A DNA stretch of 46,049 nucleotides, from the NCBI GenBank assembly GCA_017466345.1, contig JAFTUI010000009.1, positions 1 to 46,049 on the forward strand, given 5' to 3'. Below are positions 346-45,335 of the stretch, one piece after another. The notes beneath the pieces are model-generated. The model was given only the letters and a program-made list of their open reading frames with translations. It did no database searches and was not told the DNA's origin. The first letter of the stretch is position 1, and each line of letters begins with the position of its first letter. This DNA is from Tidjanibacter sp. GTDB lineage: Bacteria; Bacteroidota; Bacteroidia; Bacteroidales; Rikenellaceae. The position numbers and the translations under genes were made by a program.

Positions 346-485
346 GCGAGTGGGTTTTGTGAGGTGATTTTTGTGCCAAACAAGCGAGCAACTCCGCAGT
401 TTGCTCAGCGCAAATGAGGAAGTTGCGATGCGCAGTTTGGTGCAAAAAGCACCCACAAGGCACGCTCGCCCACAAGGCACACTCG
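346..485 (-). terminator. Stop-anchored long hairpin with conserved core, copy E1
   Basis: A single long imperfect hairpin spans about 346-469. The outer arm GCGAGTGGGTTTTGTGAGG pairs with CCCACAAGGCACGCTCGC, a middle arm around TGCCAAAC pairs with GTTTGGTGCA, and an inner CAACT pairs with AGTTG. These enclose the conserved apical core CCGCAGTTTGCTCAGCG plus CAAATGAGGA at 394-420. A 16-bp partial duplication of the 3' arm (470-485) runs up to the TAG stop of the amidase at 486-488. Position and folding suggest the 3' end or terminator of the amidase transcript. Copies E2 to E6 lie elsewhere in the window. Confidence 0.7.
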
Positions 486-1616
486 CTACTCGGATTGTAC
501 TATATACGCCCCAGGGAAGTACTTTTCAGCCTCCTTCTTAATTGTCTGGGCATCAGCCTTATCCTTTGCGGGGATGAGGCAGCGCCACTTGCCACTGCTC
601 GTCTTTCGTTGTACAATCTTGCCGGCCCACTTGCCAAACTTCCTATCGGCAGGGTTGGACTCCTTCGAAAGGGTGCATATCTGCACATAGTATCTCTTCT
701 GGTCACTCTTCACACTCTCCTTTGCGACCTCTTTTGCGGGCGTAGAGGGTTTTGTGGTGTGCGTTGTGGTGTGCGTTGTTGCTGGTTTATTTTCGGTAGC
801 AGGAGTAACAACCACCGAAGCCTCCTCGGCCTTGGCGTTACACTTTGCCCTATACTCGCTGAAAGCGTCAAAGAGAGCCTTCACAACCTGCTTCTGTCCC
901 ACCTCGCTATGGAGATAGTCGCGGTCGCCCTTGTGCGTCATAAAGCCCATCTCGGTAAGCACCGAGGGCATTGCCGTGCGCCACAGCACAAGGTAGGGAC
1001 CCTGACGTGCTCCCCTATCCGTAATGGAGGTGTTCAGGGCGTAGTGCTTCTGCACCATCTGGGCAAAGACCATACTTTGCTCGGCGTGGGCATACTGCAT
1101 CAGCGAGAAGATGATAAAACTCTCTGCACTCGTGGGGTCGTAACCCTCATATTTCTCCTCGTAGTCGCCCTCCATAACAATCACCGAGTTCTCCCTCTGC
1201 GCCACGGCGAGGTTCTTTTCGCTCTTGTCGTTACCCATTATGTAGGTACTGCTGCCGTGCGCCTCGTTGTTGCCCACCGCATCGGTGTGGATGGAGATGA
1301 AGAGGTCGGCACCCGCCTTGTTGGCAATATCGCCCCTTGTGTGGAGTTCCACAAAGCGGTCGTCCTTGCGGGTGTAGATAACCGTCACATCGGGATAGGC
1401 CTCCTCAATCATAGCACCCAGCGCGAGCGCCACTTTGAGGTTGAGTTCCTTCTCGGTGCGGTTACCCCAAGTACACCCGGGGTCCTTACCACCGTGACCG
1501 GCGTCAATAACCACCGTGGAGAGCCTGCGCTCGGCAGCATCAATTTTGCCCTGTGCAAATACCACACTTGGCAAAAAGAGCGTTAATATGACGAACAAAC
1601 GAGTTGTTAGTTTCAT
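486..1616 (-). CDS. N-acetylmuramoyl-L-alanine amidase with C-terminal SPOR-like domain
   Basis: Zinc-dependent peptidoglycan amidase (Amidase_3 family) that would cleave the amide bond between MurNAc and the stem peptide in the periplasm during cell separation. The 376-aa product starts with a signal peptide (residues 1-22, ending VVFAQG). This is why the ATG at 1616 is preferred over an upstream in-frame start at 1655. Expected zinc ligands are visible: His41 in DAGHGG, Glu55 in RTEKELN, His110 in SIHTDA, and catalytic Glu222 in TEMGFM. A Thr/Pro-rich linker leads to a C-terminal ~75-residue segment (YYVQICTLSK to YIVQSE) resembling a SPOR peptidoglycan-binding domain. The gene is divergent from lptD, whose promoter overlaps its 5' end. 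Its stop codon abuts long hairpin E1. Confidence 0.9.
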   Translation of the reverse strand: MKLTTRLFVILTLFLPSVVFAQGKIDAAERRLSTVVIDAGHGGKDPGCTWGNRTEKELNLKVALALGAMIEEAYPDVTVIYTRKDDRFVELHTRGDIANKAGADLFISIHTDAVGNNEAHGSSTYIMGNDKSEKNLAVAQRENSVIVMEGDYEEKYEGYDPTSAESFIIFSLMQYAHAEQSMVFAQMVQKHYALNTSITDRGARQGPYLVLWRTAMPSVLTEMGFMTHKGDRDYLHSEVGQKQVVKALFDAFSEYRAKCNAKAEEASVVVTPATENKPATTHTTTHTTKPSTPAKEVAKESVKSDQKRYYVQICTLSKESNPADRKFGKWAGKIVQRKTSSGKWRCLIPAKDKADAQTIKKEAEKYFPGAYIVQSE

Positions 1617-1633
1617 TGTTTTTTGTATCTTTG
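1604..1633 (+). promoter_or_regulatory. Bacteroidetes-type promoter for lptD
   Basis: TTG at 1604-1606, a 19-bp spacer, and TATCTTTG at 1626-1633 match the TTTG/TAnnTTTG consensus of the Bacteroidetes primary sigma factor. It overlaps the first codons of the divergent amidase gene. Confidence 0.65.
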
Positions 1634-1684
1634 TAGGTTGATTATCGCACGCCACAGGCGGTGAAAATCACTTAGTTATGAGTT

Positions 1685-1705
1685 TTTGCCGACTTTGTCG
1701 GCAAA
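1685..1705 (+). other. Hairpin in the lptD 5' leader
   Basis: Perfect 8-bp stem TTTGCCGA / TCGGCAAA with loop CTTTG, lying between the predicted transcription start (about 1640) and the ATG at 1731. No T-tract follows directly, so it is more likely a leader structure than a terminator. Confidence 0.45.
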
Positions 1706-1730
1706 GTTAAGGATTTTTTGTGGATTTTTG

Positions 1731-4457
1731 ATGCGAAAAGGCATAAAATATACTCTTTTTTTGGTGGTGGCACTGATGTATGCTACCGCCCTCGGTGCGC
1801 AAACTCTCCCTACGGGAGCGGAAAATTTGCACACCACGAGAGATTCTTTGCCTCATTTGGGCAGTGAAGAGCGCACTATGCCCCACCCTTTCAGTCGCAA
1901 TTTCGCACAAGCCGACACACTCCACAGCGACACCAACAGATCCATTGACTCGCTCTTGGTATTGCCGAGCGACACAGCAGGCAGACGCAAGGAGCGCAAC
2001 TTCCTCGATGAGATCATTAGCGGCAAGAACAAGGACTCGCTCTACTATGACGTAAGGGGCAAGATGGTGCACATCTACGAGCAGGGCGATGTTACCTACG
2101 GCAATATGAACATCAAGGCTGACTATATGCGCGTGTCGATGGACTCGAAGGAGATTTTGGCATACGGTAAGGCAGACACCTCCGCCTACGGTCACACACG
2201 CCCCGAATTTACCGAGGCTGGCTCGACCTACACGATGGACACTGTGACCTACAACATCGACTCCAAGAGGGCGAAAATCTATGGCGTAGTGACCAAAGAT
2301 GGCGAGGGCTACCTGACGGGTAAGGAGGTAAAGATGATGGACGACAAGTCGTTCAACATCAAGGGTGGTGTCTATACCACTTGCGAGCATACCGACCATC
2401 CCCACTTCTACATCAGTATGACCAAGGCTAAGTTCATCCCCGGCAAGAAGATTGTATCGGGACCTCTCTATTTGGTCATTGCCGATGTGCCATTGCCCGT
2501 GATGATTCCTGAGATCTTCTTCCCGATGAATATGGAGCGTAAGACGGGTTTCATTATGCCCTCCTATGGCGAGGAGAACCTTCGTGGTTTCTATCTGAAA
2601 AATGGTGGATACTACTTCCACTTCAACGACTACATAGACCTTCAACTCACGGGTGGTATCTATTCGCTTGGTTCGTGGGAGATCAATGCCTCCTCTTCGT
2701 ATCGTGTGCGCTACAAGTTCAACGGCTCTATCGGTTTCAACTATGCCAAGACCATTTCGGGAGACAAAGGCTCTGCCGACTACCAAAATCAGAGCAATAT
2801 AAAGGTCACTTGGACCCACTCGCAGGACTCCAAGTTCAACCCCAACTCCACATTCTCGGCAAACGTCAACTTCTCCACACCGGGTTATAACAAGAATGCT
2901 TCGAACAACCTCTCGGAGTATCTTTCGGCGCAGACCAACTCCTCCATCTCCTACTCACACTCGTGGAAGGGTACGCCCATCAGTATGTCGGCGAATATGA
3001 ACTACTCGCAGAACTTCAACACGGGAGTGGTATCAATCGGTCTGCCCAATATGAACGTCAACGTGAGCCGCTTCTACCCCTTCAAACGTAAGGTTATGGT
3101 AGGTAAGGAGCGTTGGTATGAGAAGATTGCAATGACCTATAAGGCTCAGATACAGAATAGTATCAACAATGTCCAATACGAAGACCTGATGAAGCCAGAG
3201 ACGCTCGGACAGTTCCGAAATGGCGTAAAACACACCATCCCCATCAGTGCTTCGTTCAACGTATTGGGCTTCATCAACCTCTCGCCCTCTATCAACTACA
3301 ACGAGAGGTGGTATTTCCGCCGCATAAACCAGAATTGGGACCCCGAAGCAGGCGCTATCGTGCAGGATACCACACGCGGCTTCTATCGAGTCTATGACTA
3401 CAACGCCTCCGTGTCGGCAAACACCACCCTCTATGGTATGTACCAATTCAAAAATCCAAATAGCTACGTCAAAGCCATACGCCACACCATAAACCTCTCG
3501 GCGAGTGCTTCGCTGGCTCCCGACTTTGGTACGGATAAATATGGCTATTGGAAAGAGGTGCAGAGCAATGCCAATGGCACACAAACGCGCCGCTACTCGC
3601 CCTATTCGGGAGAGCTCTATGGTGTACCAAGCAGCGGACGCAATGCGAGTGTGTCGCTCTCGGTGGACCAGACACTCGAAGCAAAGGTGGCAAGCGATGA
3701 GGATACTACGGGTATGAAGAAAGTGAAGATTATCGACAACTTCTCCTTCTCGCTCAACTACAACTTCCTCGCTGACTCTATGAAACTCGCCAACATCCCC
3801 GTTAGGATACGCTCGAATATCATCAAGAATTTCGGTATCAACATCTCGATGACACTCGACCCCTATGAGGTGGATAAGACTACGGGTAAGCGATACGACA
3901 AACTACTCCTTAGGCGTGGTATCCCTGGTCGTATTGCCTCAACGGGTTGGTCGTGTGGCTACACGTTCCGCTCTTCGGATCTCTACACCGAGAGTACCAT
4001 CAACGACATCTCGAAGCAGTACCCCGAGTACTCCAACCCATATTTTTACGACCCCAACGACCCGTTGGATCCCGCACTGCGTAGGCAACTTATGACATCG
4101 CAGTACTACGACTTCTCGATGCCTTGGAACTTCTCGTTCAACTACTCAATAAACTACACCAACAACGGTATAAAGGCAAAAATTGTCAATACCCTCGGCT
4201 TCAACGGTTCGCTGACACTCGACAAGGACAAGAAGTGGGCTATATCCTATTCGGGCGGTTTTGACTTCGACAAACGGGAGCTAACCCCAGGTGTTGTAAC
4301 GCTCGTCAGGGACCTCCACTGTTGGCAGATGAACTTCTCGTGTGTACCGTTTGGTTATCGTAAGAGTTGGAGCTTCAACATCAGCGTCAAGTCCTCGCTC
4401 CTGCAAGACCTCAAATACGAGAAGAGTTCTTCGCACTACGACAATATGTATGAGTAA
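1731..4457 (+). CDS. lptD: LPS-assembly outer-membrane protein LptD (Bacteroidetes type)
   Basis: Outer-membrane beta-barrel component of the Lpt machine, which delivers lipopolysaccharide to the outer leaflet with LptE. The product is 908 aa. Residues 1-24 form a signal peptide (MRKGIKYTLFLVVALMYATA...GAQ), which decides the ATG at 1731 over a TTG at 1686. Residues ~80-250 form an LptA/OstA-like jellyroll with the repeated 'VTYNIDSKRAKIYG'-style strands. The rest is a long barrel rich in alternating aromatic and polar residues. PEIFFPMNMERKTGFIMPSYG is characteristic of the LptD insert region. The protein lacks a typical C-terminal Phe but ends after a barrel strand. The gene is followed by a 9-bp repeat array and then mutS2. 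The assignment rests on whole-protein character; the LptE partner is not in the window. Confidence 0.8.
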   Translation: MRKGIKYTLFLVVALMYATALGAQTLPTGAENLHTTRDSLPHLGSEERTMPHPFSRNFAQADTLHSDTNRSIDSLLVLPSDTAGRRKERNFLDEIISGKNKDSLYYDVRGKMVHIYEQGDVTYGNMNIKADYMRVSMDSKEILAYGKADTSAYGHTRPEFTEAGSTYTMDTVTYNIDSKRAKIYGVVTKDGEGYLTGKEVKMMDDKSFNIKGGVYTTCEHTDHPHFYISMTKAKFIPGKKIVSGPLYLVIADVPLPVMIPEIFFPMNMERKTGFIMPSYGEENLRGFYLKNGGYYFHFNDYIDLQLTGGIYSLGSWEINASSSYRVRYKFNGSIGFNYAKTISGDKGSADYQNQSNIKVTWTHSQDSKFNPNSTFSANVNFSTPGYNKNASNNLSEYLSAQTNSSISYSHSWKGTPISMSANMNYSQNFNTGVVSIGLPNMNVNVSRFYPFKRKVMVGKERWYEKIAMTYKAQIQNSINNVQYEDLMKPETLGQFRNGVKHTIPISASFNVLGFINLSPSINYNERWYFRRINQNWDPEAGAIVQDTTRGFYRVYDYNASVSANTTLYGMYQFKNPNSYVKAIRHTINLSASASLAPDFGTDKYGYWKEVQSNANGTQTRRYSPYSGELYGVPSSGRNASVSLSVDQTLEAKVASDEDTTGMKKVKIIDNFSFSLNYNFLADSMKLANIPVRIRSNIIKNFGINISMTLDPYEVDKTTGKRYDKLLLRRGIPGRIASTGWSCGYTFRSSDLYTESTINDISKQYPEYSNPYFYDPNDPLDPALRRQLMTSQYYDFSMPWNFSFNYSINYTNNGIKAKIVNTLGFNGSLTLDKDKKWAISYSGGFDFDKRELTPGVVTLVRDLHCWQMNFSCVPFGYRKSWSFNISVKSSLLQDLKYEKSSSHYDNMYE

Positions 4458-4599
4458 ATTGAGAGTTGAGAATTGAGAATTGAGAGTTAAGGTCATTAAA
4501 GTCCTTAAAGTCCTATATGCCCTATATGCCCTATAAGCCTTAGGACTATTGACGTTAGACGTTGGACGTTAGACGTTAGACGTTAGACAAACCAGAAAA
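4458..4599 (+). repeat. 9-bp drifting array plus 7-bp array between lptD and mutS2, copy 2
   Basis: After a short GAGAATTGAGA-type stretch (4461-4485), 9-mers TTAAGGTCA, TTAAAGTCC (twice), TATATGCCC (twice) and TATAAGCCT lead into TTAGGACTATTGACGTTAGA (4540-4559). Then come GTTGGAC and three exact GTTAGAC heptamers up to 4588. This is the only copy lying directly upstream of a co-directional start codon (ATG at 4600), so it forms most of the mutS2 5' region. No hairpin of the E family is present here. Confidence 0.8.
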
Positions 4600-7083: not shown

Positions 7084-7240
7084 GCATAAGGGGGGGGCGA
7101 CTCGCCAAACTACTCGTCAGTAGAAAAACCGAGAGATAAGTGCGTGGGTTTCAAGAAATAGCAGGGGCAATTCTCAATTTATAGAGCGATAGATGCCAAC
7201 CGCCCACCTTGCGGTGGTCGTGGCAAGACGGAGTTTTGTA
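7084..7240. repeat. Intergenic stretch with AGATGCCAACCGCC hairpin repeat, copy B1
   Basis: No gene is seen. It holds a run of eight G (7090-7097) and, at 7191-7230, a 40-bp hairpin repeat: outer arms TGCCA/TGGCA, an internal loop, inner arms CCACC/GGTGG and loop TTGC. Copies occur at 41803-41842 (inner arms changed together to CTGCC/GGCAG) and 45672-45710. Confidence 0.75.
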
Positions 7241-7371: not shown

Positions 7372-7383
7372 AGCACCCCCATA

Positions 7384-15767: not shown

Positions 15768-16034
15768 GGATTACTGCACCGCCTGCGGCGGCTTGTGATC
15801 CCTCCGCTGCCGCGGGCGTCCTTGCAAACTGACAAAATCGGCTATTGGCTCATTTTCGGCAGCAAAGCAGGGATTACTGCACCGCCTGCGGCGGCTTGTG
15901 ATCCCTCCGCTGCCGCGGGCGTCCTTGCAAACTGACAAAATCGGCTGTTGGCTAATTTTCGGCAGCAAAGCAGGGATTACTGCACCGCCTGCGGCGGCTT
16001 GTGATCCCTCCGCTGCCGCGGGCGTCCTTGCAAA
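15768..16034. repeat. 103-bp GC-rich tandem repeat, 2.6 copies
   Basis: Units start with GGATTACTGCACCGCC at 15768, 15871 and 15974, so the period is exactly 103 bp. The third copy stops after 61 bp at CTTGCAAA. Each unit contains compact GC hairpins (CCGCC-TGC-GGCGG) followed by CGCTGCCGCGGGCG and an A/T-rich spacer with CATTTTCGGCAGCAAAG. Copies differ by only a few bases. Minus-strand open frames exist, but 103 is not a multiple of three, so the frame shifts from unit to unit and coding is not supported. The array lies between the LRR gene and the integrated element. Confidence 0.9.
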
Positions 16035-16037
16035 TAA

Positions 16038-16167
16038 GCAAGAAAGCCTCAGTTCTTTTGGCAAAAAGAGTCTTTTTTATGCAACAAGGTGGCATTGTGA
16101 GCGAGCTCACTGCCACCTTGTTGCATAAAAAAACCTCTGCTTTCGCAGAGGTCTGAGGCTTTCTTGC
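16038..16167. other. Nested inverted-repeat structure next to the left attachment site
   Basis: Outer arms GCAAGAAAGCCTCAG (16038-16052) and CTGAGGCTTTCTTGC (16153-16167) are a perfect 15-bp inverted repeat. Inside are a second hairpin with a perfect 22-bp stem (16073-16094 with 16111-16132, topped by GTGAGC/GCTCAC) and the GAAA-loop terminator at 16133-16152. The whole can fold as a three-way junction. The T/A runs at the ends of the 22-bp stem would make it a bidirectional terminator. Confidence 0.8.
16127..16152 (-). terminator. Terminator of the ancestral tRNA-Ser transcript
   Basis: On the minus strand ACCTCTGC-GAAA-GCAGAGGT is followed by seven T (16133-16127). It lies ~20 bp past the left copy of the tRNA 3' end. 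Before the element inserted it would have sat directly downstream of tRNA-Ser(CGA). The insertion now separates the two by 12.1 kb. Confidence 0.7.
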
Positions 16168-28482: not shown

Positions 28483-28645
28483 GGCTTTCTTACAGACCTC
28501 TCCCCCGCTTCGCGGACCCTCCCTGCTCGGCGGGGACGCCGAGCGCAATTTCGACCACCCCTCCTATCCTCCCCTGTCGTAGGGGAGGAACTTCTTTACA
28601 GACCTCTCCCCCGCTTTGCGGGCCCTCCCCTAACTTAGGGGAGGG
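28483..28645. repeat. Paired-hairpin repeat, copy 2 (double)
   Basis: Two partial copies of the CTTTACAGACCTCTCCC element: 28487-28520 and 28577-28645. Between them is a stretch identical to window positions 5-45. The second copy ends in the perfect CCCTCCCCTAA/TTAGGGGAGGG hairpin at 28623-28645. Confidence 0.8.
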
Positions 28646-28764
28646 ATGCAAGGGTTACAGGGGTTACAAGGGTTGCAAGGATAACAAGAAAGAATTCCCC
28701 CTGCAACCCCTGTTATCCCTGTTATCCCTGGAACTCTTAGGACTATTGACGTTAGACGTTGGAC
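28646..28764 (+). repeat. 9-bp drifting array with TTAGGACT module, copy 3
   Basis: Units GGTTACAGG, GGTTACAAG, GGTTGCAAG and GATAACAAG are followed by their rough complement: CCTGCAACC, CCTGTTATC (twice), CCTGGAACT. Next come TTAGGACTATTGACGTTAGA (28737-28756) and GTTGGAC. The two halves could pair as a long imperfect hairpin. Confidence 0.8.
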
Positions 28765-28889
28765 AAAAAACGCAGATAACGCGATGGATGCAAGGCATAC
28801 GAGAAAGCGGCTCCGCAGTTTGCTTAACGCAAATGAGGAAGCCGCTTATCGAAGTATAACGCCGCAGACGCGCGTTAGATGCGTTTTTT
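28765..28889 (-). terminator. Stop-anchored long hairpin with conserved core, copy E2
   Basis: The outer arms AAAAAACGCA (28765-28774) and TGCGTTTTTT (28880-28889) pair. The inner arms AAGCGGCT (28805-28812) and AGCCGCTT (28840-28847) pair perfectly. They enclose the core CCGCAGTTTGCTTAACGCAA plus ATGAGGA. The TAA stop of the peptidase gene (28888-28890) overlaps the terminal run, so the transcript enters the hairpin directly from its stop codon and leaves through a T-run: a bona fide terminator architecture. Confidence 0.8.
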
Positions 28890-30870
28890 ATAGGTTGTCG
28901 TCAAAGTAGAGCGTAACCTTATCCATCAGATGCACACGGTCTTTGCCTCTAACATTGTGCTCGTGGCAGGGATAGGGGAAATAATCGACCTGCACGTTAT
29001 TGACCACACATTCGCGCACAAAACTGAGGCTATGTTGCCACAGCACTACGGGGTCTATGCCGCCCTGGCAGATGAGCAGTTTGCCTTTGAGATTATTCAC
29101 TTGGTTGATGAGTGAAGTTGCAGCATAACCTTCGGGGTTTTGTTCGGGGCGATCCATATACCTTTCGCCATACATCGCCTCGTACCACTTCCAATCAATG
29201 ACGGGTCCGCCCGCAACGCCCACCTTGAAGACCTCGGGATGGTGTGTCATCAGCGAGATGGTCATAAAGCCGCCATAACTCCAACCGTGCACGCCAACAC
29301 GCTCTGCATCTACCCACTCGTGAGAGAGCAGCCACTCCACACCCTTCATCTGGTCCTCCATCTCGCACTTACCGCACTGGCGGTGGATAGCCTTTTCGTA
29401 CTCGGCACCGTGCCAGAGTGTGCCTCGGTTGTCCATCACAAAGACCACATAGCCACGCTGTGCCATATACATCTCCCAGCGGCGCAGGTTTGCGAGGTAG
29501 GAGTTGTTGACCATCTGGCTGTGAGGACCACCATAGACATAGACAATGGCAGGGTATTTCTTTGCTGGATCGAAATCCAGAGGATAGATAAGGCGGTACC
29601 AATTCTCCCATTTACCGTCTGCGGTGGGTATGGTGCCGAGTTCTATGGGGGTGTAGTTGTAACCCTCGGTGGGGTCGGCAGCTGTCAGCAGGTTGCGCAC
29701 AACCTTGCCATCCTTGGTGGAGGCAAGATTTACAACGCGGGGTACATAGAGCGCTGAGTAGTTGTCTACGAGGTATTTGCCACAAGGGCTAATGGAGCAG
29801 TTGTGCCAGCCTGCCTCGTGCGTAAGCCTTACGCTCTTACCGCTCTTGGTGCTGACCTTTGCAAGGTGCTGCTCGGCGGTGGAGAACTCGGCAGTGTAGT
29901 AGTATACCCACTCACCACGCCTATCTAAGTAGGTCACATCAGCATCCACCTTGGTCAGTCGCTCCACATTCCAGCCTCCCTCTTTGCCACGCGAGCAGAC
30001 GTAGAGGTTCCAATAACCATCGCGCACATTGGTCGAGTAGATGAACTTCTCGCCCTCGGTGTCGAGCCACTGCAAGGGGTAGAGGGGCTCCACATAGCGG
30101 GGATCGCTCTCGGTGAGGATGGTTTCAACAAATGCGCCCGTGGCGGAGCAGTAACTGTTAAGGTGCATCTCGTTCTGGTCGCGGTTGAGCACCTGTATGT
30201 AGATAAGTTCGCCATTGGGGCTCCAAGTGATATTTGTGAGGTAGCGTTCCTCGTCAAAGTCGGTAACGGCGAGCCATACGGTCTGCTGGGTGCGACTATC
30301 CCACACGCCAACCCTCACACGCTCGGAGTCCATACCCGCCATAGGGTACTTAATCTCTCGAAGAGAGCCTGTGCGGGTGGTAATATCCAAGAGAGGAAAG
30401 GTGCCCACCTTGCTCTCGTCTTTCTGGTAGAAAGCCACCGACAAGCCATCGGGCGAGGGGAAGATACCATCCACAATACCAAACTCGTTGCGACTGACAA
30501 ACGAGCCGCTTACTATATTCTTGTCCTCATTGGCTGTTATGGCAACCCTCTCGCCTTCTACCTCGGCAAAGAGGTTGTTCTCCTCTGTGAAGTAGCGGGG
30601 TTTGACCACCTCGTCCCCTGTTTTGGGAGCAGGAGTTGCAGGATTGCCATTTGTGGGGTAGAACCACTCCACCTTTTCGGGGCTTGTGGCTGTGCCATAG
30701 ATGGTTTTGCCCTTCGAGTCTGCGCCCCAAAGAGTCGCAAGGTTCTCTGGCAGAAGTTCGCGCGAAAGGATTGTCTCTTCCATTGTTAGTAGTCGTTTTT
30801 CCTGAGCCTTGGCACCATAAGGGAGTGCAAGGCATACGAGAAATGCACAAAAAAGCTTTCTAAAATTCAT
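28888..30870 (-). CDS. S9-family prolyl oligopeptidase / dipeptidyl peptidase IV-like
   Basis: Periplasmic serine peptidase that removes X-Pro dipeptides or acts as an oligopeptidase. The 660-aa protein has a signal peptide (MNFRKLFCAFLVCLALPYGA...KAQ). An N-terminal beta-propeller (~80-420, DPPIV_N style) includes a WSPNGELIYIQVLNRDQNEM blade. The C-terminal alpha/beta hydrolase domain has nucleophile GWSYGG (Ser near 531), an Asp in GGIDPVV (~603) and a His in CHEHNVRG (~636). It is somewhat shorter than typical Bacteroidetes DPP IV (over 700 residues). It is divergent from apt with overlapping promoters and ends in hairpin E2. Confidence 0.87.
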   Translation of the reverse strand: MNFRKLFCAFLVCLALPYGAKAQEKRLLTMEETILSRELLPENLATLWGADSKGKTIYGTATSPEKVEWFYPTNGNPATPAPKTGDEVVKPRYFTEENNLFAEVEGERVAITANEDKNIVSGSFVSRNEFGIVDGIFPSPDGLSVAFYQKDESKVGTFPLLDITTRTGSLREIKYPMAGMDSERVRVGVWDSRTQQTVWLAVTDFDEERYLTNITWSPNGELIYIQVLNRDQNEMHLNSYCSATGAFVETILTESDPRYVEPLYPLQWLDTEGEKFIYSTNVRDGYWNLYVCSRGKEGGWNVERLTKVDADVTYLDRRGEWVYYYTAEFSTAEQHLAKVSTKSGKSVRLTHEAGWHNCSISPCGKYLVDNYSALYVPRVVNLASTKDGKVVRNLLTAADPTEGYNYTPIELGTIPTADGKWENWYRLIYPLDFDPAKKYPAIVYVYGGPHSQMVNNSYLANLRRWEMYMAQRGYVVFVMDNRGTLWHGAEYEKAIHRQCGKCEMEDQMKGVEWLLSHEWVDAERVGVHGWSYGGFMTISLMTHHPEVFKVGVAGGPVIDWKWYEAMYGERYMDRPEQNPEGYAATSLINQVNNLKGKLLICQGGIDPVVLWQHSLSFVRECVVNNVQVDYFPYPCHEHNVRGKDRVHLMDKVTLYFDDNL

Positions 30871-32420: not shown

Positions 32421-32426
32421 TTGGAC

Positions 32427-32526
32427 TTTAAGGACATATAAGCCCTATAAGCCCTATAAGCCCTATAAGCCCTATAAGCCCCATAAGACTTATAAGACTT
32501 AGGACTATTGACGTTAGACATTAGAC
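32427..32526 (+). repeat. 9-bp array of TATAAGCCC with TTAGGACT module, copy 4
   Basis: TTAAGGACA, then a run of TATAAGCCC units (five nearly exact), CATAAGACT, TATAAGACT, then TTAGGACTATTGACGTTAGA (32499-32518) and ATTAGAC. It fills the convergent nagB-rpoD gap together with hairpin E3. Confidence 0.85.
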
Positions 32527-32652
32527 AAAAAAACGCAGAGAAGCGAGCGAGTTATAGGCGCACAAGAAAACCCCTGCCGAGTTTACTAAGCGTAAATGAG
32601 GCAGGGGTTTATCGCAGTGCAACGACTAAATCGCCGCTTATATGCATTTTTT
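32527..32652 (-). terminator. Stop-anchored long hairpin, copy E3 (rpoD)
   Basis: Perfect inner arms AACCCCTGCC (32569-32578) and GGCAGGGGTT (32600-32609) around core GAGTTTACTAAGCGTAAATG. The outer A-run/TGCATTTTTT end overlaps the TAA stop of the sigma-factor gene (32651-32653). It shares 3'-arm text (TCGCAGTGCAACG...CGCCGCTTA) with E4. Confidence 0.8.
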
Positions 32653-33511
32653 ATCCGAGGTAGGATTTCAAAAGCTTGCTCCGACTACTATGACGCAGAC
32701 GGCGAATAGCCTTCTCCTTAATCTGACGTACACGCTCGCGGGTAAGACCGAACTTCTCGCCAATCTCTTCGAGAGTCATCTCGGAGCAACCGATGCCGAA
32801 GAAGTACTTGATAATATCTTTCTCGCGGTCGGTCAGGGTGTCCAAAGCGCGGTCCACCTCGGTAGCCAGCGACTCATTGATAAGACCACGGTCAGCATTG
32901 GGCGAGTCGGCATTCACGAGCACATCCAGCAGGTTGTTGTCCTCGCCATCGGCAAAGGGTGCATCAACCGAGACGTGGCGACCCGACACACGCAGTGTGT
33001 CCGACACCTTCTCTTTGGGGAGGTTGAGCATATCGGCGAGCTCCTCAGGCGAGGGTGTGCGCTCGTTCTCCTGCTCGAAACGACCGAAAGCTTTGTTAAT
33101 CTTATTGAGCGAGCCTACCTGGTTGAGGGGCAAGCGTACAATACGCGACTGCTCTGCCAGAGCCTGCAAGATGGACTGACGAATCCACCATACGGCATAG
33201 GAGATGAACTTAAAACCACGAGTCTCATCGAACTTCTCAGCCGCCTTGATAAGACCCAAGTTACCCTCGTTGATAAGGTCGGGGAGCGAAAGTCCCTGAT
33301 TCTGGTACTGCTTAGCCACCGACACCACAAACCTAAGGTTTGCTTTTGTGAGTTTTTCGAGTGCCTCTTGGTCGCCTTTGCGAATGCGCTGGGCGAGTTC
33401 CACCTCCTCCTCAACCGTGATGAGTTCCTCTTTACCGATCTCTTGGAGGTACTTGTCGAGCGATGCGCTCTCGCGGTTGGTGATTGACTTTGTGATTTTT
33501 AACTGTCTCAT
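32651..33511 (-). CDS. rpoD: Primary sigma factor RpoD/SigA
   Basis: Directs RNA polymerase to the TTTG/TAnnTTTG promoters seen throughout this window. At 286 aa it is the short Bacteroidetes form lacking most of region 1.1. Region 1.2 starts at [16 protein letters not shown]. Region 2 has [20 protein letters not shown] and [15 protein letters not shown] (-10 recognition). Region 3 follows, and region 4 contains [20 protein letters not shown] (-35-type HTH). It lies 68 bp downstream of the HtrA gene in the same direction and may be partly co-transcribed with it. It ends in hairpin E3. Confidence 0.95.
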
Positions 33512-36670: not shown

Positions 36671-36924
36671 CACAGGCCTCTCCCGCCCTAACTGTAACCC
36701 TACCTGACTCAGGGGATGGTTACAAGGGTTGCAGGGGTAGCAAGGGTTACAAGGATGACAGGGATGACAGGGATGACAGGGATGACAGGGTATTAAGGAC
36801 GTTAAGGACGTTAAGGTCATTAAAGTCCTTAAACTCCTTAAATTCCCATAAGCCCTATATGCCTTATATGCCCTATAAGCCTTGCCCTATAAGCCTTAGG
36901 ACTATTGACGTTAGACGTTAGACC
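36671..36924 (+). repeat. Degenerate paired-hairpin repeat and longest 9-bp drifting array, copy 5
   Basis: 36671-36720 is a decayed copy of the ACAGxCCTCTCCC element with CTGACTCAG loop. Then more than twenty 9-mers run in phase: GGTTACAAG, GGTTGCAGG, GGTAGCAAG, GGTTACAAG, GATGACAGG (four times), GTATTAAGG, ACGTTAAGG (twice), TCATTAAAG, TCCTTAAAC, TCCTTAAAT, TCCCATAAG, CCCTATATG, CCTTATATG, CCCTATAAG. One insertion precedes the TTAGGACT module (36896-36915). It shows the full gradient from GC-rich to AT-rich units in one array. Confidence 0.85.
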
Positions 36925-37052
36925 AAAAAAATGCATATAAACGAGCGTATTTTAGGCGCACAAGAAAATCCCCTCCGCAGTTTACTGAGCGTAAATGAGG
37001 AGGGGATTTGTCGCAGTGCAACGCCAAAGACGCCGCTTAGATGCATTTTTTA
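36925..37052 (-). terminator. Stop-anchored long hairpin, copy E4 (ferredoxin)
   Basis: Perfect inner arms AAATCCCCTCC (36966-36976) and GGAGGGGATTT (36999-37009) around core GCAGTTTACTGAGCGTAAAT. Outer arms AAAAAAATGCA and TGCATTTTTT. The ferredoxin TAA stop (37050-37052) overlaps the terminal T/A run. Confidence 0.8.
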
Positions 37053-38633: not shown

Positions 38634-38664
38634 AGGGAAAAAGGTTTTTATGGTTTATTTGCCA

Positions 38665-38691
38665 CAAATATACCAAAAATTAGTATCTTTG
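38665..38691. promoter_or_regulatory. Overlapping divergent -7 boxes, serS and glutaminyl cyclase
   Basis: TATATTTG on the minus strand (38672-38665, for serS) and TATCTTTG on the plus strand (38684-38691) are only 11 bp apart. Polymerase binding at one should exclude the other. -33 elements are not at ideal spacing. Confidence 0.5.
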
Positions 38692-38714
38692 TAATCATAT
38701 GACGCATCTTTTTT

Positions 38715-39527: not shown

Positions 39528-39540
39528 TACTATACCGACA

Positions 39541-40755
39541 ATGTATAAGGGAATAAACAAAATAACCGAAGAGGTGTTGGGCGACTACATTGGTCTGCTC
39601 TCCACCTACTACGACCTCCACTCCCGCCCCGAACTATCCTTCAAGGAGTGGCAAACTGCCGAGCGCCTATCGCTCCATCTGAGGGGCAAGGGCATTGAGC
39701 ATCGCCCCATAGCCCAAACCGGCATTTTGGCAAAAATTGAGGGTACAGCAGAGGGTGCCAATCTTAGCAGAGCGATAGTCTTGCGTGCCGACATTGACGC
39801 ACTACCCATCAGGGAGGCTAACGAGGTACCCTATGCCTCGAAGTGCGAGGGGGTGATGCACGCTTGCGGTCACGATATGCACGCCACCATTCTTTTGGGC
39901 ACACTCGGGTGGCTCAACGACCACCGCGAGGAGTTGGGATGCACCATCTTTGGACTCTTCCAGCCCGGCGAGGAGGTAAACCCCGGGGGTGCGAAGATTG
40001 TCTTGGACGAAAATCCCTTCGAGGGCTACGAGGTGGTGGCTGTGGTCGGCAATCACATAGAGCCCACACTCCCTACGGGCACTATCGGCATCTGCGAGGG
40101 GCAATATATGGCAGCGTGTGACGAGTTGCACTTCAAGATTGAGGGCAAGGGCGGTCACGCAGCGTTGCGCGAAAAAATCATAGACCCCATACTACCCACT
40201 GCTCGACTCATCGAGGAACTCTATCGACTTCCCGCCGCAGCACCCGAAGGTGCAGGGCAGACCATACTCTCCATAGGTAAAATTGAGGCAGCAGGCGCAA
40301 CCAACGTAGTGCCCAACGAGGTGCGCTTGGAGGGTACAATGCGCACTTTCGATGAGGCGTGGCGCGAAGAACTCAAAAGGCGCATAGATAGTGTGTGCGA
40401 TGGTCTTGCGAGTGAGTATGGCATTGACATAGAGAACAACTTTGGCAGTGGCTACCCATCGGTCTACAACAACCCTCAGTTAGCCCAGAGTGCAAAGGAT
40501 ATTTTGGGTGGACTCTTCGAGGTTGTAGAACTCGGTATGCGCCCCACAGGCGAGGATTTCGGATACTACACCGAGCGTTACCCCTCGCTCTTCTATCGCT
40601 TGGGTGTGGGCTATGCGGGCGAGGATTTCGAGGGTGGCAAGGCAGGCGCACTACACACACCTACGCTCTTGCCCGACACCAAAGCCATAGGCGTAGGCAT
40701 CTTGGCGATGGTGCTCCTTGCATTGGATTTTCAGAACCTAACATTCGGTAGATAA
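39541..40755 (+). CDS. M20-family amidohydrolase (N-acyl-amino-acid type)
   Basis: Metal-dependent hydrolase of N-acyl amino acids or short peptides. The 404-aa protein shows the M20D signature VMHACGHDMHATILLG (His-x-Cys-x-His, residues ~105-120), a catalytic Glu in FQPGEEVNPGG, and a dimerisation lid domain (~185-300). A C-terminal metal-binding region TGEDFGYYTER closes the core, with His in GALHTPTLLPD. It has no signal peptide, so it is cytoplasmic. Its stop codon is 1 bp from the trmH-like start, indicating translational coupling. Confidence 0.88.
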   Translation: MYKGINKITEEVLGDYIGLLSTYYDLHSRPELSFKEWQTAERLSLHLRGKGIEHRPIAQTGILAKIEGTAEGANLSRAIVLRADIDALPIREANEVPYASKCEGVMHACGHDMHATILLGTLGWLNDHREELGCTIFGLFQPGEEVNPGGAKIVLDENPFEGYEVVAVVGNHIEPTLPTGTIGICEGQYMAACDELHFKIEGKGGHAALREKIIDPILPTARLIEELYRLPAAAPEGAGQTILSIGKIEAAGATNVVPNEVRLEGTMRTFDEAWREELKRRIDSVCDGLASEYGIDIENNFGSGYPSVYNNPQLAQSAKDILGGLFEVVELGMRPTGEDFGYYTERYPSLFYRLGVGYAGEDFEGGKAGALHTPTLLPDTKAIGVGILAMVLLALDFQNLTFGR

Positions 40756-40756
40756 T

Positions 40757-41503
40757 ATGGTAACAAAGGCAGATTTTCAACTCGTGCGCTCGCTCGCAGA
40801 CAAGCACTCGCGCCTCGAACACGGACTCTTTGTTGCCGAGGGCGACAAACTCGTGGGCGAGATTATCGCCAACCCCGAGTGGCACATCGAGCGACTCTTT
40901 GTGACCGAGGGAAGCAAGGTGTCCTCATCGCAAGCAGAGGTGGTAAGTCCTAAGGAAATTGAGCGTCTTTCAGCACTCAAAAGTGCGCCACGCTCCATTG
41001 CCCTTGTAAGAATCCCCAAACGCAAAGCCTTTGTGCCAAGTGCCGATGAGTTGGTAATAGCGCTCGATGAGGTGCAAGACCCCGGCAATCTGGGCACCAT
41101 AATACGCACAGCAGATTGGTACGGCATAAGGCGCATAGTATGTTCGCCCACCACCGCCGACTGCTTCGCACCAAAGGTCGTGCAGGCAACAATGGGGGCC
41201 CTCCTGCGTGTAGAGGTGCACTATTGCGACCTCCCCGAGTGGCTCGGCATAGTACGCGACAAAGGGATACCAACCTACGCCACGACACTCGATGGCAAAG
41301 ACATACACACCGCACCTCTCAGCCGCGGAGGAGTGATAATAATGGGTAACGAGGGCAAAGGCGTAAGCCCCGCAGTGCAGGCAATGGTGGAGCACAAACT
41401 CTTCATACCACCCTACCCCGCCGACCGCCACGGTAGCGAATCACTCAACGTTGCCATCGCCACAGCCATAACGTGCGAAAATTTCAGAAACAAAAAAGGT
41501 TGA
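40757..41503 (+). CDS. TrmH/SpoU-family RNA 2'-O-methyltransferase
   Basis: SAM-dependent RNA ribose methyltransferase with a trefoil-knot fold. The 248-aa protein has an N-terminal RNA-binding segment (~1-90). The SPOUT domain has LDEVQDPGNLGTIIRTADWY (motif 1), IIMGNEGKGVSP (motif 2) and IPPYPADRHGSESLNVAIAT (motif 3), all intact. Whether it targets 23S rRNA or tRNA cannot be told. It is the last gene of the run, and the terminator stem overlaps its stop codon. Confidence 0.92.
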   Translation: MVTKADFQLVRSLADKHSRLEHGLFVAEGDKLVGEIIANPEWHIERLFVTEGSKVSSSQAEVVSPKEIERLSALKSAPRSIALVRIPKRKAFVPSADELVIALDEVQDPGNLGTIIRTADWYGIRRIVCSPTTADCFAPKVVQATMGALLRVEVHYCDLPEWLGIVRDKGIPTYATTLDGKDIHTAPLSRGGVIIMGNEGKGVSPAVQAMVEHKLFIPPYPADRHGSESLNVAIATAITCENFRNKKG

Positions 41504-41524
41504 GAACACTCTCAACCTTTTTTT
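41495..41524 (+). terminator. Intrinsic terminator overlapping the trmH-like stop
   Basis: Perfect 11-bp stem AAAGGTTGAGA / TCTCAACCTTT with loop ACAC, then a T-run. The TGA stop lies inside the 5' arm. Confidence 0.88.
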
Positions 41525-41552
41525 CTACACTTTTCATTTTGCGATTTTCTTC

Positions 41553-41591
41553 TCCGCTTTTTGTAAAAAGCGGAACCAAAAACTTTTAGTG
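41553..41591. repeat. TTTTTGTAAAAA hairpin repeat, copy G1
   Basis: Stem TCCGCTTTTT / AAAAAGCGGA (41553-41574) followed by CCAAAAACTTTTAGTG. A second copy at 42655-42694 has different but paired arms GCACC/GGTGC, with the same centre and tail. The rest of 41592-41740 holds no gene, only short hairpins. Confidence 0.7.
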
Positions 41592-41739
41592 TAGCCTTTG
41601 CGGTGGTGTGACTGCCTTTGCAGGCAGATTAGCAGTCGAAACATCAACCCTCTTCCAAACAAGTTTGAGAGGGTTGCTCTTTCGCCTGCCACTCTCCTTC
41701 GGAGAGCCTCACACCTCCCCGAAAAAGCATTCTCTCAAA

Positions 41740-42034
41740 CTCTCCTGTAATCCTTGTTACACCTGCTACCCTTGTTATCCCTGCAAGAAAAACAAGATAG
41801 GTAGATGCCAACCGCCTGCCTCGCGGCAGTCGTGGCAAGACGGACAGCAACAAAGGAGGTTTGTCTTATCCCATATCTCTCAGTCCTCCCATAACTCCCA
41901 TAACTCCCATAACTCCCATAAGCCCTATATGCCTTATAAGCCTTATAAGCCCTATAAGCCTTAGGACTCTTGACGTTAGACGTTATTCCGAGACCAAGCG
42001 CAATGCAGCAGATGCGGTGCGAGATGTGCTCGCC
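41740..42034 (+). repeat. 9-bp arrays, B2 hairpin and TTAGGACT module, copy 6
   Basis: CTCCTGTAA, TCCTTGTTA and CACCTGCTA units (41740-41785) precede hairpin repeat B2 (41803-41842: TGCCA/TGGCA outside, CTGCC/GGCAG inside). Then come CATAACTCC (four times), CATAAGCCC, TATATGCCT and TATAAGCCT-type units, TTAGGACTCTTGACGTTAGA (41961-41980), and a truncated E-type end with GCGAG-ATGTG-CTCGC next to the lemA stop. The E core is missing here. Confidence 0.8.
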
Positions 42035-42619
42035 TTAGAACTCTACGGCAGGAACACTCTCTGCGCCTTTGGTGCTCTCGAAGTAAACCTTAGCCTCGTA
42101 GCCGAACATATTGGCGATGAGGTTCGAGGGGAAGCGTTTGGTCTTGATGTTGTAAGCCTTTACAGCCTCGTTGAAGTCCTTGCGGGCAACAGCAATGCGG
42201 TTTTCGGTGCCCTCCAACTGAGCCTGCAACTCCATAAAGTTGTTGCTTGCTTTCAGCTCGGGGTACGCCTCGCCAATAGCCATAAGTCTGCCCAAAGCAG
42301 CACCCACAGCACCCTGAGCCTCGTTATACTCCGCCAACTGCTCGGCAGTGAGCCTCTCGGCATCCACCACAACCTGCGTAGCCTTGGCCCTCGCCTCAAC
42401 AACCTGCTCGAAGGTCTGCTGCTCGTGTGCCGCATAACCCTTCACGGTGTTCACAAGGTTGGGAATAAGGTCGAGCCTGCGCTGATACTGATTCTCCACC
42501 TGACTCCAAGCATTGTCCACCTTCTCACTGCGGGTTACAAAACCATTGTAGGTCGAAACACCCCACACAACAACGACTGCCACAACAGCCAATACAATCC
42601 ATAATCCTTTGTTTTTCAT
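42035..42619 (-). CDS. lemA: LemA family protein
   Basis: Membrane-anchored helical protein of 194 aa. A single N-terminal membrane segment (GLWIVLAVVAVVVVWGVSTY) is followed by the conserved LemA block VDNAWSQVENQYQRRLDLIP, then NLVNTVKGYAAHEQQTFEQV and long helices to the C-terminus. Its biochemical role is unsettled. LemA commonly neighbours a TPM-domain protein, as here (the upstream gene at 42982). The usual tight pairing is interrupted by 362 bp of repeats that include a terminator-like hairpin. Confidence 0.9.
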   Translation of the reverse strand: MKNKGLWIVLAVVAVVVVWGVSTYNGFVTRSEKVDNAWSQVENQYQRRLDLIPNLVNTVKGYAAHEQQTFEQVVEARAKATQVVVDAERLTAEQLAEYNEAQGAVGAALGRLMAIGEAYPELKASNNFMELQAQLEGTENRIAVARKDFNEAVKAYNIKTKRFPSNLIANMFGYEAKVYFESTKGAESVPAVEF

Positions 42620-42859
42620 AGCTTTATTTTTTTAAGTTTGTCTTTTCTTTTTTCGCACCTTTTTGTAAAAAGGTGCTGCCAAAAACTTTTCGTGCACCAA
42701 CCAATCGTAGTACTACCTACCGCCTTGCTTAGGAGTGGCTTCGGAACTCCCATTTCTCTCAGTCCTCCCATATCTCCCATAATCCCCATAAGCCCTATAT
42801 GCCTTATACGCCCTATAAGCCTTAGGACTATTGACGTTAGACGTTGGACCCTAATTCCA
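42620..42859 (+). repeat. G2 hairpin and 9-bp drifting array with TTAGGACT module, copy 7
   Basis: 42655-42676 folds as GCACCTTTTT / AAAAAGGTGC, followed by CCAAAAACTTTTCGTG. Then 9-mers CATTTCTCT, CAGTCCTCC, CATATCTCC, CATAATCCC, CATAAGCCC, TATATGCCT, TATACGCCC and TATAAGCCT lead into TTAGGACTATTGACGTTAGA (42822-42841) and GTTGGAC. This copy separates two co-directional minus-strand genes, yet the module keeps the plus-strand orientation. Confidence 0.8.
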
Positions 42860-42982
42860 GCGAGTGCATATCGTGAGGTGATTTCAAGGCTTGGTTTTGA
42901 TTTTGCTCCGGAGTTTACTCGCGGTAAATGAGGAAGCAAAATCAAAAGCATAACGCAGAAATCGCCCACGAGATGTGCTCGC
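42860..42982 (-). terminator. Stop-anchored long hairpin, copy E5 (TPM gene)
   Basis: Outer arms of ~24 nt: GCGAGTGCATATCGTGAGG with CCCACGAGATGTGCTCGC. Perfect 13-bp inner arms TTTTGATTTTGCT (42895-42907) and AGCAAAATCAAAA (42935-42947). Core CCGGAGTTTACTCGCGGTAA plus ATGAGGA. The TAG stop of the TPM gene (42982-42984) overlaps the last base of the outer arm, as in E1. Confidence 0.8.
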
Positions 42983-43893
42983 TAAAAGCGACCGCCGGCA
43001 CCACCGCCCCCACTAAATCCGCCGCCGAAGCCACCACCAAAGCCGCCACCTCGTCCGAAGCCTCCGCCGCCCATAATGATGGGACCTCCACCGCCCTTGC
43101 CACCGTGCGAAATATCGTCTGCCTCGTTGCGCCAAACGATATGCCCGCACTTATTGCACTTGAATGCCACTTTGTAGACCTTCTGGAAGGAGTTTTTCTC
43201 TATCTCCACACGGTCGGAGGTGCGCACAAGGGTGCCCTTCTTGCACTTGGGGCAACGGCTATAAAGGTGCAAGAGCAGAACAATGAGGGCAATGAACACT
43301 ATCGCCGTACCGATGAATATGGCAAGACCAATGAGGGCATCATTGTCCTCTTCGGCAGCGAGGTTTTCGGGCACCTCGGAGGTTGCGAGTACGCTCGCAA
43401 GAGCCCCAACACCCTCTGTCATACCGCCATCGAAGTCGCGCTCCTTGAAGCGGGGTATCATCACGCGCTCTATGATACGTTTGCAGAGCGCATCGGGCAA
43501 CGTGCCCTCCAAACCGTAGCCCGTCTCTATCTCTATTGCACCCTGCCCGAGCACCAAGAGTACCAGCAGACCATTGTCACGTCCCTTCTCGCCAATGCCC
43601 CAATGGCGGAAAAGCTCGGTGGCAAACTCGCGGGGCTCGGCGAAGCCTATGGATTCCACCGCCACCACTGCCACCTCAGCTATGCGCTCTTCTTTGAGCC
43701 TTAGGAGGGTGGTATCTATCTGATAGACTGCCTCGTTAGAGAGTATGTCATCGGGGTTGCTCACAAAGTGGCGATAATCAGCCACCTGCACATTGGGCAC
43801 CGTCTGCGGGGTATAATTCTTAGCCACGAGGCCCTGCGGAGCAAAACCTATCGCCCCGAGCACCATCGCCACTACAACTAAAAATCGCCTCAT
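42982..43893 (-). CDS. TPM-domain membrane protein with zinc ribbon and Gly-rich tail
   Basis: The 303-aa protein has a signal peptide (residues ~1-24), a periplasmic TPM domain (~33-165: DDILSNEAVYQIDTTL ... GYGLEGTLPD) and a transmembrane helix (~187-211). A cytoplasmic zinc ribbon follows (CPKCKKGTLV ... FKCNKCGHIVW), with a Gly/Phe/Arg-rich low-complexity tail (~270-303). TPM domains occur in proteins linked to photosystem II repair or respiratory maintenance, and in bacteria typically with LemA. The zinc ribbon between helix and Gly-rich tail is intact. Function in this organism unknown. Confidence 0.87.
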   Translation of the reverse strand: MRRFLVVVAMVLGAIGFAPQGLVAKNYTPQTVPNVQVADYRHFVSNPDDILSNEAVYQIDTTLLRLKEERIAEVAVVAVESIGFAEPREFATELFRHWGIGEKGRDNGLLVLLVLGQGAIEIETGYGLEGTLPDALCKRIIERVMIPRFKERDFDGGMTEGVGALASVLATSEVPENLAAEEDNDALIGLAIFIGTAIVFIALIVLLLHLYSRCPKCKKGTLVRTSDRVEIEKNSFQKVYKVAFKCNKCGHIVWRNEADDISHGGKGGGGPIIMGGGGFGRGGGFGGGFGGGFSGGGGAGGRF

Positions 43894-43920
43894 AGGTCAA
43901 AAATCTTCTTTGGGTTGAAT

Positions 43921-43949
43921 GCAAATATACATATTCTTTGTATATTTGC
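43921..43949. promoter_or_regulatory. Palindrome carrying divergent -7 boxes (TPM / MFS)
   Basis: Perfect 11-bp inverted repeat GCAAATATACA (43921-43931) / TGTATATTTGC (43939-43949). Each arm contains TATATTTG pointing outward, so one symmetric site may serve both genes. Confidence 0.5.
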
Positions 43950-43999
43950 GAATGCAGTGAGCAAAAAATTAACGTAAACTTTATAAAACTATTTTATCT

Positions 44000-45268
44000 A
44001 TGAAACTGAAAATCAGGTTGATTATTATGAACTTCCTGCAATATGCAGTTTGGGGTGCCTACCTTACGAGTATGGGACGCTACCTCGGAGGTGCAGGAAT
44101 GGCAGAGAACATCGGTTGGTTTTACGCAATGCAGGGCGTTGTATCCATCTTTATGCCCGCACTTGTAGGTATCGTTGCAGACCGTTGGATTCCCGCACAG
44201 AAGGTGTTGAGCCTCTGCCACGGTTTGGCAGGTGCTGCGATGTTGGCAGCAGGTATGTATGGTCTTTCGACCGCAACCCCCGAGTTCGGCATACTCTTTA
44301 CGCTCTACTCCATTAGTGTAGCCTTCTTTATGCCCACCATCGCACTCTCCAACTCGGTGGCATACTCGGCACTTAATGGTGCAGGTTTGGATACGGTAAA
44401 ACACTTCCCCCCAATCCGCGTATTTGGCACCATTGGCTTTATTTGCGCAATGCTCCTGACCGATGCTCTCGGCTTCCAGGCTAACGCCAAACAACTCGTA
44501 TTCTCGGGTGCTATCGGTTTGGTATTCTGCCTCTATGCGCTCACCTTGCCAAACTGCCCCGTCAATAGGAATGCAGAGAAGAAATCACTCGCGCAGACAC
44601 TTGGCTTAGACGCCTTCAAACTCTTCAAGGAGAGAAAGATGGCTATCTTCTTCATCTTCTCAATGTTGCTCGGTGTGTCGTTGCAGATTACCAATGGCTT
44701 TGCAAACCCCTTCCTCGGCAGTTTTGAGGCTATTCCCGAGTATGCCGGCACCTTTGGCGTACAGCACTCCAATATGCTCATCTCGCTCTCGCAGGTGAGC
44801 GAAACGCTCTGTATTCTTCTGATTCCCTTCTGCTTGCGCAAGTTCGGTATTAAGAAGGTTATGCTTATGGCGATGGTGGCTTGGGTATTCCGCTTTGGTT
44901 TGTTTGGTGTTGGTAACCCCGGTAGTGGCGTGTGGATGTTCATCCTCTCGATGATTGTCTATGGCGTGGCATTCGACTTCTTCAATGTCAGCGGCTCGCT
45001 CTATGTTGATCAGGAGACCAAACCCGAAATTCGTTCCAGCGCACAAGGTCTGTTTATGATGATGACCAACGGTTTTGGTGCAACCATCGGCACCCTCTCG
45101 GCGCAGGCTGTTGTGAACGCTTGCGTCAATAGCCAGCCTCACGGAGCAGCACAGGTTGCAGGTTGGAGCCAGGCTTGGCTCATCTTCGCAGCCTATGCAC
45201 TCGTTGTGGCGGTGTTGTTTGCTATCATCTTCAAGTACAAACACCAACCAAGCGCACCTCGCGAGTAA
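44000..45268 (+). CDS. MFS transporter, nucleoside:H+ symporter (NupG) type
   Basis: Inner-membrane transporter of 422 aa with twelve predicted helices. The first helix LIIMNFLQYAVWGAYLTSMG and the GRYLGGAGMAENIGWFYAMQ loop are typical of the Bacteroidetes nucleoside-permease subgroup of the major facilitator superfamily. A second-half MFS repeat begins near residue 215 (AIFFIFSMLLGVSLQITNGF). No partner enzyme is adjacent, though apt in the window also belongs to purine salvage. The substrate is inferred from family likeness. A hairpin of the E family follows in the opposite orientation. Confidence 0.82.
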   Translation: MKLKIRLIIMNFLQYAVWGAYLTSMGRYLGGAGMAENIGWFYAMQGVVSIFMPALVGIVADRWIPAQKVLSLCHGLAGAAMLAAGMYGLSTATPEFGILFTLYSISVAFFMPTIALSNSVAYSALNGAGLDTVKHFPPIRVFGTIGFICAMLLTDALGFQANAKQLVFSGAIGLVFCLYALTLPNCPVNRNAEKKSLAQTLGLDAFKLFKERKMAIFFIFSMLLGVSLQITNGFANPFLGSFEAIPEYAGTFGVQHSNMLISLSQVSETLCILLIPFCLRKFGIKKVMLMAMVAWVFRFGLFGVGNPGSGVWMFILSMIVYGVAFDFFNVSGSLYVDQETKPEIRSSAQGLFMMMTNGFGATIGTLSAQAVVNACVNSQPHGAAQVAGWSQAWLIFAAYALVVAVLFAIIFKYKHQPSAPRE

Positions 45269-45287
45269 ATTCCGCACCGCACTACTA

Positions 45288-45335
45288 TAAACCTCCTCCG
45301 CATTTACCCCAATGTAAACTGCGGAGGAGGTTTTC
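45288..45335 (+). terminator. Terminator hairpin with E-family core, copy E6 (MFS gene)
   Basis: Perfect 13-bp stem AAACCTCCTCCGC (45288-45300) / GCGGAGGAGGTTT (45320-45332), followed by T-rich sequence. The loop ATTTACCCCAATGTAAACT is, in transcript sense, the same core as E2-E5 (ATTTAC...GTAAACTGCGG), now on the plus strand because the gene is on the plus strand. Confidence 0.8.

Follow-up and report, generated by a model that had tools for sequence, protein, structure and literature searches.

Long palindromic hairpins mostly anchored at stop codons form a dispersed family with exchanged stems in Tidjanibacter

The 46,049-nucleotide (nt) stretch analysed here (the window; positions 1 to 46,049 of contig JAFTUI010000009.1, assembly GCA_017466345.1) is one contig (C29) of a Tidjanibacter sp. 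genome of 1.82 Mb that is 95.6% complete. It carries a series of long hairpins that follow protein-coding genes and belong to a dispersed family whose covarying stems, as argued below, point to a process acting on DNA. Six sites with a shared core had been marked in an initial annotation of the window. All six exist; E1–E5 are full copies scoring 98–117 bits against a covariance model trained on 12 copies, E1–E5 included, and E6 is only an apical remnant that covers model positions 34–99 (Table 1). The core had also been said to keep one orientation relative to the gene that it follows, and this holds, since E1–E5 lie behind minus-strand genes and E6 behind a plus-strand gene. The small open reading frame (ORF) in front of E4 has, judged by eye, a ferredoxin-type cysteine pattern. 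All assemblies examined were metagenome-assembled genomes (MAGs), and genes were called with a simple longest-ORF caller.

Table 1. Hairpin copies and other repeats in the window (strand of the model match; scores in bits)
Feature	Positions	Strand	Score	Description
E1	345..465	+	116.8	Full copy; after minus-strand amidase gene, stop 486-488
Extra right-arm fragment	466..485	+		Between E1 and the amidase stop codon
E2	28765..28884	+	113.5	Full copy; after minus-strand DPPIV/S9 peptidase gene, stop 28888-28890
E3	32528..32647	+	98.6	Full copy; after minus-strand sigma-70 factor gene, stop 32651-32653
E4	36926..37046	+	113.9	Full copy; after minus-strand 55-residue ORF, stop 37050-37052
E5	42859..42978	+	98.1	Full copy; after minus-strand TPM-domain gene, stop 42982-42984
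E6	45274..45343	-	25.7	Apical remnant; after plus-strand nucleoside symporter gene, 44000-45268
9-base tandem units (CCCTATAAG-like)	253-335, 4465-4573, 28699-28770, 32424-32532, 36750-36936, 41868-41994, 42747-42855			Second dispersed family; no hairpin at 4465-4573 and 41868-41994
Further hairpin family (CTCCCCTAACTTAGGGGAGGG-like)	126-195, 28577-28650, 45377-45447, 45612-45663			With ACAGACCTCTCCC neighbour
Direct and inverted repeats	15768-16076 and 16038-16167			Three 103-nt direct repeats leading into an imperfect 60-nt inverted repeat

The element is about 121 nt long and nearly all paired, forming a single end-to-end hairpin. From the ends inwards it consists of an outer stem, a middle stem with conserved irregularities, a variable inner stem and the apex, with the sequence CCTCA-TTTRC-GCTNA-GYAAA-CTGCGG in the mRNA sense. 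The 8–13 base-pair stems that had been described as perfectly paired but unrelated in sequence do pair and covary, and are the inner part of this larger structure, in which covariation extends to the middle and outer stems as well. Length is near-constant: 128 of the 135 model matches in the genome span at least 111 nt, and the matches listed measure 112–124 nt. A G·T pair next to the apical stem, on the strand opposite the mRNA, is kept in 125 of 128 copies. In two copies, E6 and one at another locus (L289), the asymmetric apex has turned symmetrical; the CCTCA/CTGCGG mismatch usual in the family is paired in E6. The apex covaries too, because the hairpin at the sigma-factor gene in three related genomes (G006, G008 and G012) carries a different apical stem, CATAC/GTATG, as judged by eye and by a single-sequence fold.

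A search of the genome with the covariance model returned at least 135 matches, with 150 of 648 candidates scored. Many of these are further copies with paired, diverged stems, as the initial annotation required. The core pattern occurs exactly at 27 places in the genome and a reversed control pattern at none. Fourteen head-to-tail neighbours lie at most 25 nt apart, several of them with differing stems. Four pairs of copies are identical both in the inner part and in the 60-nt flanks and are probably assembly duplicates. Copies with such identical flanks on different contigs (C17/C26, C19/C27 and C25/C28) suggest that contig ends were duplicated in the assembly.

The copies of this genome are anchored mostly at one end. 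The stop codon of an ORF no shorter than 60 codons lies at -14 to +10 nt from the right-hand end (the orientation being that of the initial annotation) in 85 of the 128 full copies and at 11–30 nt in an additional 16, whereas the same test at the left-hand end found a stop in only 12. With the simple gene caller, a minus-strand gene lies downstream in 103 of the 135 matches, the stop of that gene being at most 10 nt away in 58 and 11–30 nt away in 12. A pattern search detected an additional right-arm fragment at the stop codon in seven of the 128 full copies, E1 included; the arrangement resembles what replacement of an older element would leave. A U-run in the mRNA sense (at least four A at the left end) is present in 59 full copies and absent from the other 69. 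The proposal of a conserved motif that goes beyond an ordinary terminator and keeps a fixed orientation to the preceding gene was supported.

Across the genus the model matched 17 of 24 genomes, the studied one included, and none of the remaining seven; copies per genome range from 0 to 135, and one genome (G011) has a single weak match. The exact core pattern was found in four of 61 genomes, again counting the studied one. In a species-genome collection it was present in at least 98 stretches from MAGs titled Rikenellaceae, Alistipes, Tidjanibacter and Bacteroidaceae, and viral contigs contained no exact core match. The model matched 24 of 25 chosen loci of other Bacteroidales and of a deep clade of the genus, the loci beyond the genus having been chosen for the exact core and not as a random sample. 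One locus (L066) holds three copies in tandem. A minus-strand gene lies downstream in 38 of the 50 other-genus copies tested. No description of the family was found in the open-licence literature searched.

When the 12 copies were aligned without regard to structure, 91.7% of cells were paired and 28 of 41 pairs showed double changes. The covariation score was 0.557, against 0.199 for shuffled alignments and at most 0.120 for slid partners; for 128 distinct copies, in an alignment fitted to the model, the corresponding values were 0.572, 0.186 and at most 0.136. The covariation described in the initial annotation is real. It had been read as evidence for selection on RNA or cruciform structure. 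At gathering score, Rfam 15 found nothing in the window but a tRNA, and at E ≤ 1 the six loci gave no relevant match and one weak unrelated one. For an RNA, G·U on its own strand is more tolerable than A·C. The inner stem had 14 GT and 13 AC on the model strand among 1528 cells, the figures being reversed in the mRNA sense. As a control, 31 distinct tRNAs from the fetched loci gave 52 GU and 0 AC among 669 cells; the comparison is indicative, since both sides carry a bias, the model fit towards GT on the model strand and the tRNA finder towards standard pairs.

Stems are also replaced block by block. The inner part of the element (~87 nt) scored at least 0.93 with a copy in unrelated flanks in 71 of 125 copies, and the same inner part was found within outer stems of differing sequence with pairing intact. 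The copies at C12:49746 and C8:128800, for example, have identical inner parts within unrelated outer stems, both of which are paired. Stepwise compensation is an unlikely route to this pattern.

At a few loci (RpsU, C22:44116, C11:26667 and C19:15664) the neighbouring sequence is present as an inverted copy, and the distal arm of the hairpin mirrors the end of the gene. RpsU ends in GAC GAA GAG TAG in the studied genome and in GAG GAG TAG in most relatives; the element begins immediately past the TAG, and its distal arm contains the complement of GAAGAGTAG, the local version. The rpsU gene of a relative (G005) also has an element-like hairpin immediately 3' of its stop codon, so the locus is not a simple case of presence and absence. 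In the ortholog of the C11:26667 locus in G017, AAAAGAAGTAATCTGACG is mirrored with zero mismatches, stop codon included. The copy at C22:44116 mirrors its own coding end, and so does its ortholog in G005 apart from one small difference; the coding end at C19:15664 is likewise mirrored in the distal arm. Pairing past the outermost model pair reached a score of at least 6 in 17 of 124 copies, compared with 15 of 742 shuffled pairs.

The sigma-factor gene illustrates the turnover among relatives. A long hairpin with differing stems stands at its stop codon in the studied genome, G013, G014 and G018, and a diverged form of it in G006, G008 and G012; G022, G005, G020, G023 and G010 carry short ordinary hairpins instead, even though the G022 protein was reported as 100% identical. 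Judging from these orthologs, the site is either shared or used again, and what lies 3' of the stop turns over fast. Separately, the ortholog of the E2 gene in G023 (locus L229) is followed by a very long, near-perfect palindrome, and several other orthologs by other long near-perfect hairpins. Palindrome growth may be general in the lineage of the studied genome.

Copies share a direction along the contig beyond what gene direction predicts. The majority direction holds for 10 of 10 copies on C8, 11 of 12 on C12 and 12 of 13 on C25, and over the 11 contigs holding five or more clusters the test of polarity against gene direction gave a Fisher P of 8e-8. In G005, where 93 of 112 matches were used (those listed, minus one antisense duplicate), 70 of the 78 copies that sit on contigs with four or more share the direction prevailing on their contig, and the test against gene direction gave P 7e-7 over nine contigs. 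Orientation also correlates with the GC skew at third codon positions (GC3 skew), with r -0.78 (Spearman P 0.0016, 16 contigs) in the studied genome and r -0.95 (Spearman P 0.03, nine contigs, C7 left out) in G005. The leading strand is usually G-rich; if this rule holds here, the copies follow genes that are transcribed with the replication fork.

Because inner-stem mismatches are strand-symmetric, polarity exceeds gene direction, stems are replaced in whole blocks and distal arms at a few loci mirror coding ends, the covariation does not support selection on RNA; these features point to a DNA-level process, to which the cruciform half of the original suggestion comes nearer. The explanation that we favour, and to which we give about an even chance, is a dispersing family of DNA palindromes that are copied at the fork during replication and made alike through template switching, with most copies anchored at the stop-codon end. 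According to PMC8794818, perfect stems can be both formed and restored by template switching, which also yields multi-base compensatory changes; for quasipalindromes in E. coli, PMC7202029 describes a strand bias of the switching. A nascent or exposed single strand at the fork would switch template at the hairpin, and fold-back copying would rewrite the distal arm from the gene-side arm. Such copying would keep stems Watson-Crick perfect while their sequence shifts, and would sometimes pull the last codons of the gene into the stem. A switch to another copy, or gene conversion, would carry the inner part between loci, and the asymmetric apex would be retained through recognition by some factor, for spread or for function. 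Copies with an A-run/U-run, about half of the full copies in this genome, could also serve as terminators, perhaps as a by-product. Fork copying is the most economical account, and would explain the perfect but unrelated stems, the mirrored gene ends and the polarity.

Several observations weigh against this explanation. Fork copying alone leaves the dispersal of the inner part and the survival of the apex unexplained, and a recognising factor or trans-acting enzyme is needed. In particular, homogenisation should erase an asymmetric apex, yet the G·T pair persists in nearly all copies, and recognition or selection must therefore act there. The outer and middle stems are not symmetric in their mismatches, with 128 GT and 90 AC among 2853 cells on the model strand, an excess in the direction that the model fit favours. 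Among the 21 closest pairs of copies, single changes outnumber double ones (18 and 7), so ordinary mutation contributes. Polarity is absent or mixed on C19 and C26 of the studied genome and on C7 of G005; the end of C10 opposes the GC3 skew, as does a portion of C19; and the five copies on the window contig all point one way, yet its mean skew is near zero (-0.007). Mirroring past the outermost model pair is mostly short. Beyond the genus, 37 of 100 copies had both TAA(A/C)AAG ends, and when their outer TTA was tested as the stop of an ORF of 60 codons or more, none of the 37 showed strict stop anchoring of the outer arm. No template-switch event was seen directly, the mirrored arms may have arisen in more than one step, and the genomes compared yielded no clean empty site.

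In a second reading, a non-autonomous mobile element is moved as single-stranded DNA by a dedicated transposase or recombinase acting in trans, polarity reflecting exposure of the lagging-strand template. The near-identical inner parts within unrelated flanks, the spread from 0 to 135 copies inside one genus, the 14 head-to-tail neighbours, the polarity and the conserved asymmetric apex all fit it; its ends, by contrast, have no fixed sequence, and neither of the two partner families searched tracks the copies. A RAYT-type partner was considered and rejected for this genus: the Y1 (IS200/IS605-type) transposase family is absent from the studied genome and present in one of the 24 genus genomes, G007, which has no copies (many of these genomes are incomplete, and other recombinase families were not searched). 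A reverse transcriptase, found in four of the 24, was rejected on the same ground of not tracking copies. We regard this reading as rather unlikely.

A little less probable again, in our judgement, is a selected RNA element of 3' untranslated regions, whether terminator, stabiliser or protein-binding motif, in which the need for a folded mRNA drives the covariation. The strength of the covariation, the ORF stop at one end of 85 of 128 copies, the U-run in 59, the conserved asymmetric apex and the hairpins with different stems at the same place behind the sigma-factor gene in several species all count in its favour. Yet there is no wobble excess in the mRNA sense, with 13 GU against 14 of the reverse kind among the 1528 inner-stem cells and 90 against 128 in the outer and middle stems. 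Polarity, moreover, exceeds gene direction, and close relatives can carry a short ordinary hairpin at the same gene, as G022 does behind its identical sigma factor. Insertion of an element into the loop of a pre-existing terminator was also considered; it fits the variable outer stems, but was set aside since elements mostly start at the stop codon and the ordinary hairpins of relatives lie at varying distances from it. Integron-like attC recombination sites, which are likewise imperfect palindromes directly after a stop, with structure conserved above sequence and a strand-specific asymmetry, are a very improbable explanation, as no conserved boxes were seen by eye at either end and the copies stand behind scattered housekeeping genes and not in cassette arrays.

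A gene for an NqrM-like protein (named by eye; loci L323-L334) was considered as an arbiter between these models. Residues after its conserved Cys-rich motif vary among most species, and its coding end overlaps different palindromic hairpins in several. A species-variable tail and differing hairpins do not separate the models, and the gene was set aside for that purpose. Hairpin turnover may nonetheless rewrite the tail of this protein.

Several known systems share part of this description. Like intrinsic terminators, the elements are hairpins after a stop codon, with an A-run/U-run in about half, but at about 121 nt they are long, they have conserved internal irregularities and a conserved apex, and 69 of 128 lack the run as defined above. 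Unlike miniature inverted-repeat transposable elements, they have no fixed terminal inverted repeats, and their outer stems differ around identical inner parts. ERIC, RPE and similar repeats are palindromes of 100–150 bp that are dispersed near genes, and so are alike in size, palindromy, dispersal and gene proximity; their members share stem sequence, whereas the stems here are often unrelated. REP sequences of the GTAG and CGTC families, which are linked to RAYT proteins, are also high-copy extragenic palindromes of patchy distribution, and movement of the GTAG REPs is ascribed to a transposase that recognises single-stranded DNA (PMC3733652); REPs, however, measure 20–40 bp. The ends of the present elements are variable, with no fixed GTAG or CGTC tetranucleotide seen by eye. 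Further differences from REPs are that the Y1 transposase was not found in the studied genome, that the copies are mostly stop-anchored and that stems are replaced while the core is kept. The hairpins ascribed to template switching share the perfect stems and the multi-base compensatory changes that arise by copying during DNA replication; what that source (PMC8794818) sets out, as far as it is used here, concerns RNA genes such as rRNA and microRNA, whereas the present hairpins form a dispersed family and some take in the end of a neighbouring gene.

Other repeats stand close to the hairpins in the window (Table 1). The 9-base tandem units of the second dispersed family terminate in TTAGGACTATTGACGTTAGACGTTAGAC and often lie immediately to the left of hairpins.

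With rather low probability, the elements could be mobile DNA of a new class: small hairpins that spread at the fork without a transposase of their own and whose terminal inverted repeats are copied from the last codons of the gene in front of them, the differing stems thus being made by the genes themselves. Covariation usually serves as the proof that an RNA is functional, and here a family of more than 100 copies in one genome covaries strongly and is apparently made at the level of DNA. If this is true, the family would be a warning to RNA-discovery pipelines and a natural bacterial setting for following template switching, and the process could be one way in which terminators and protein C-termini come to be rewritten.

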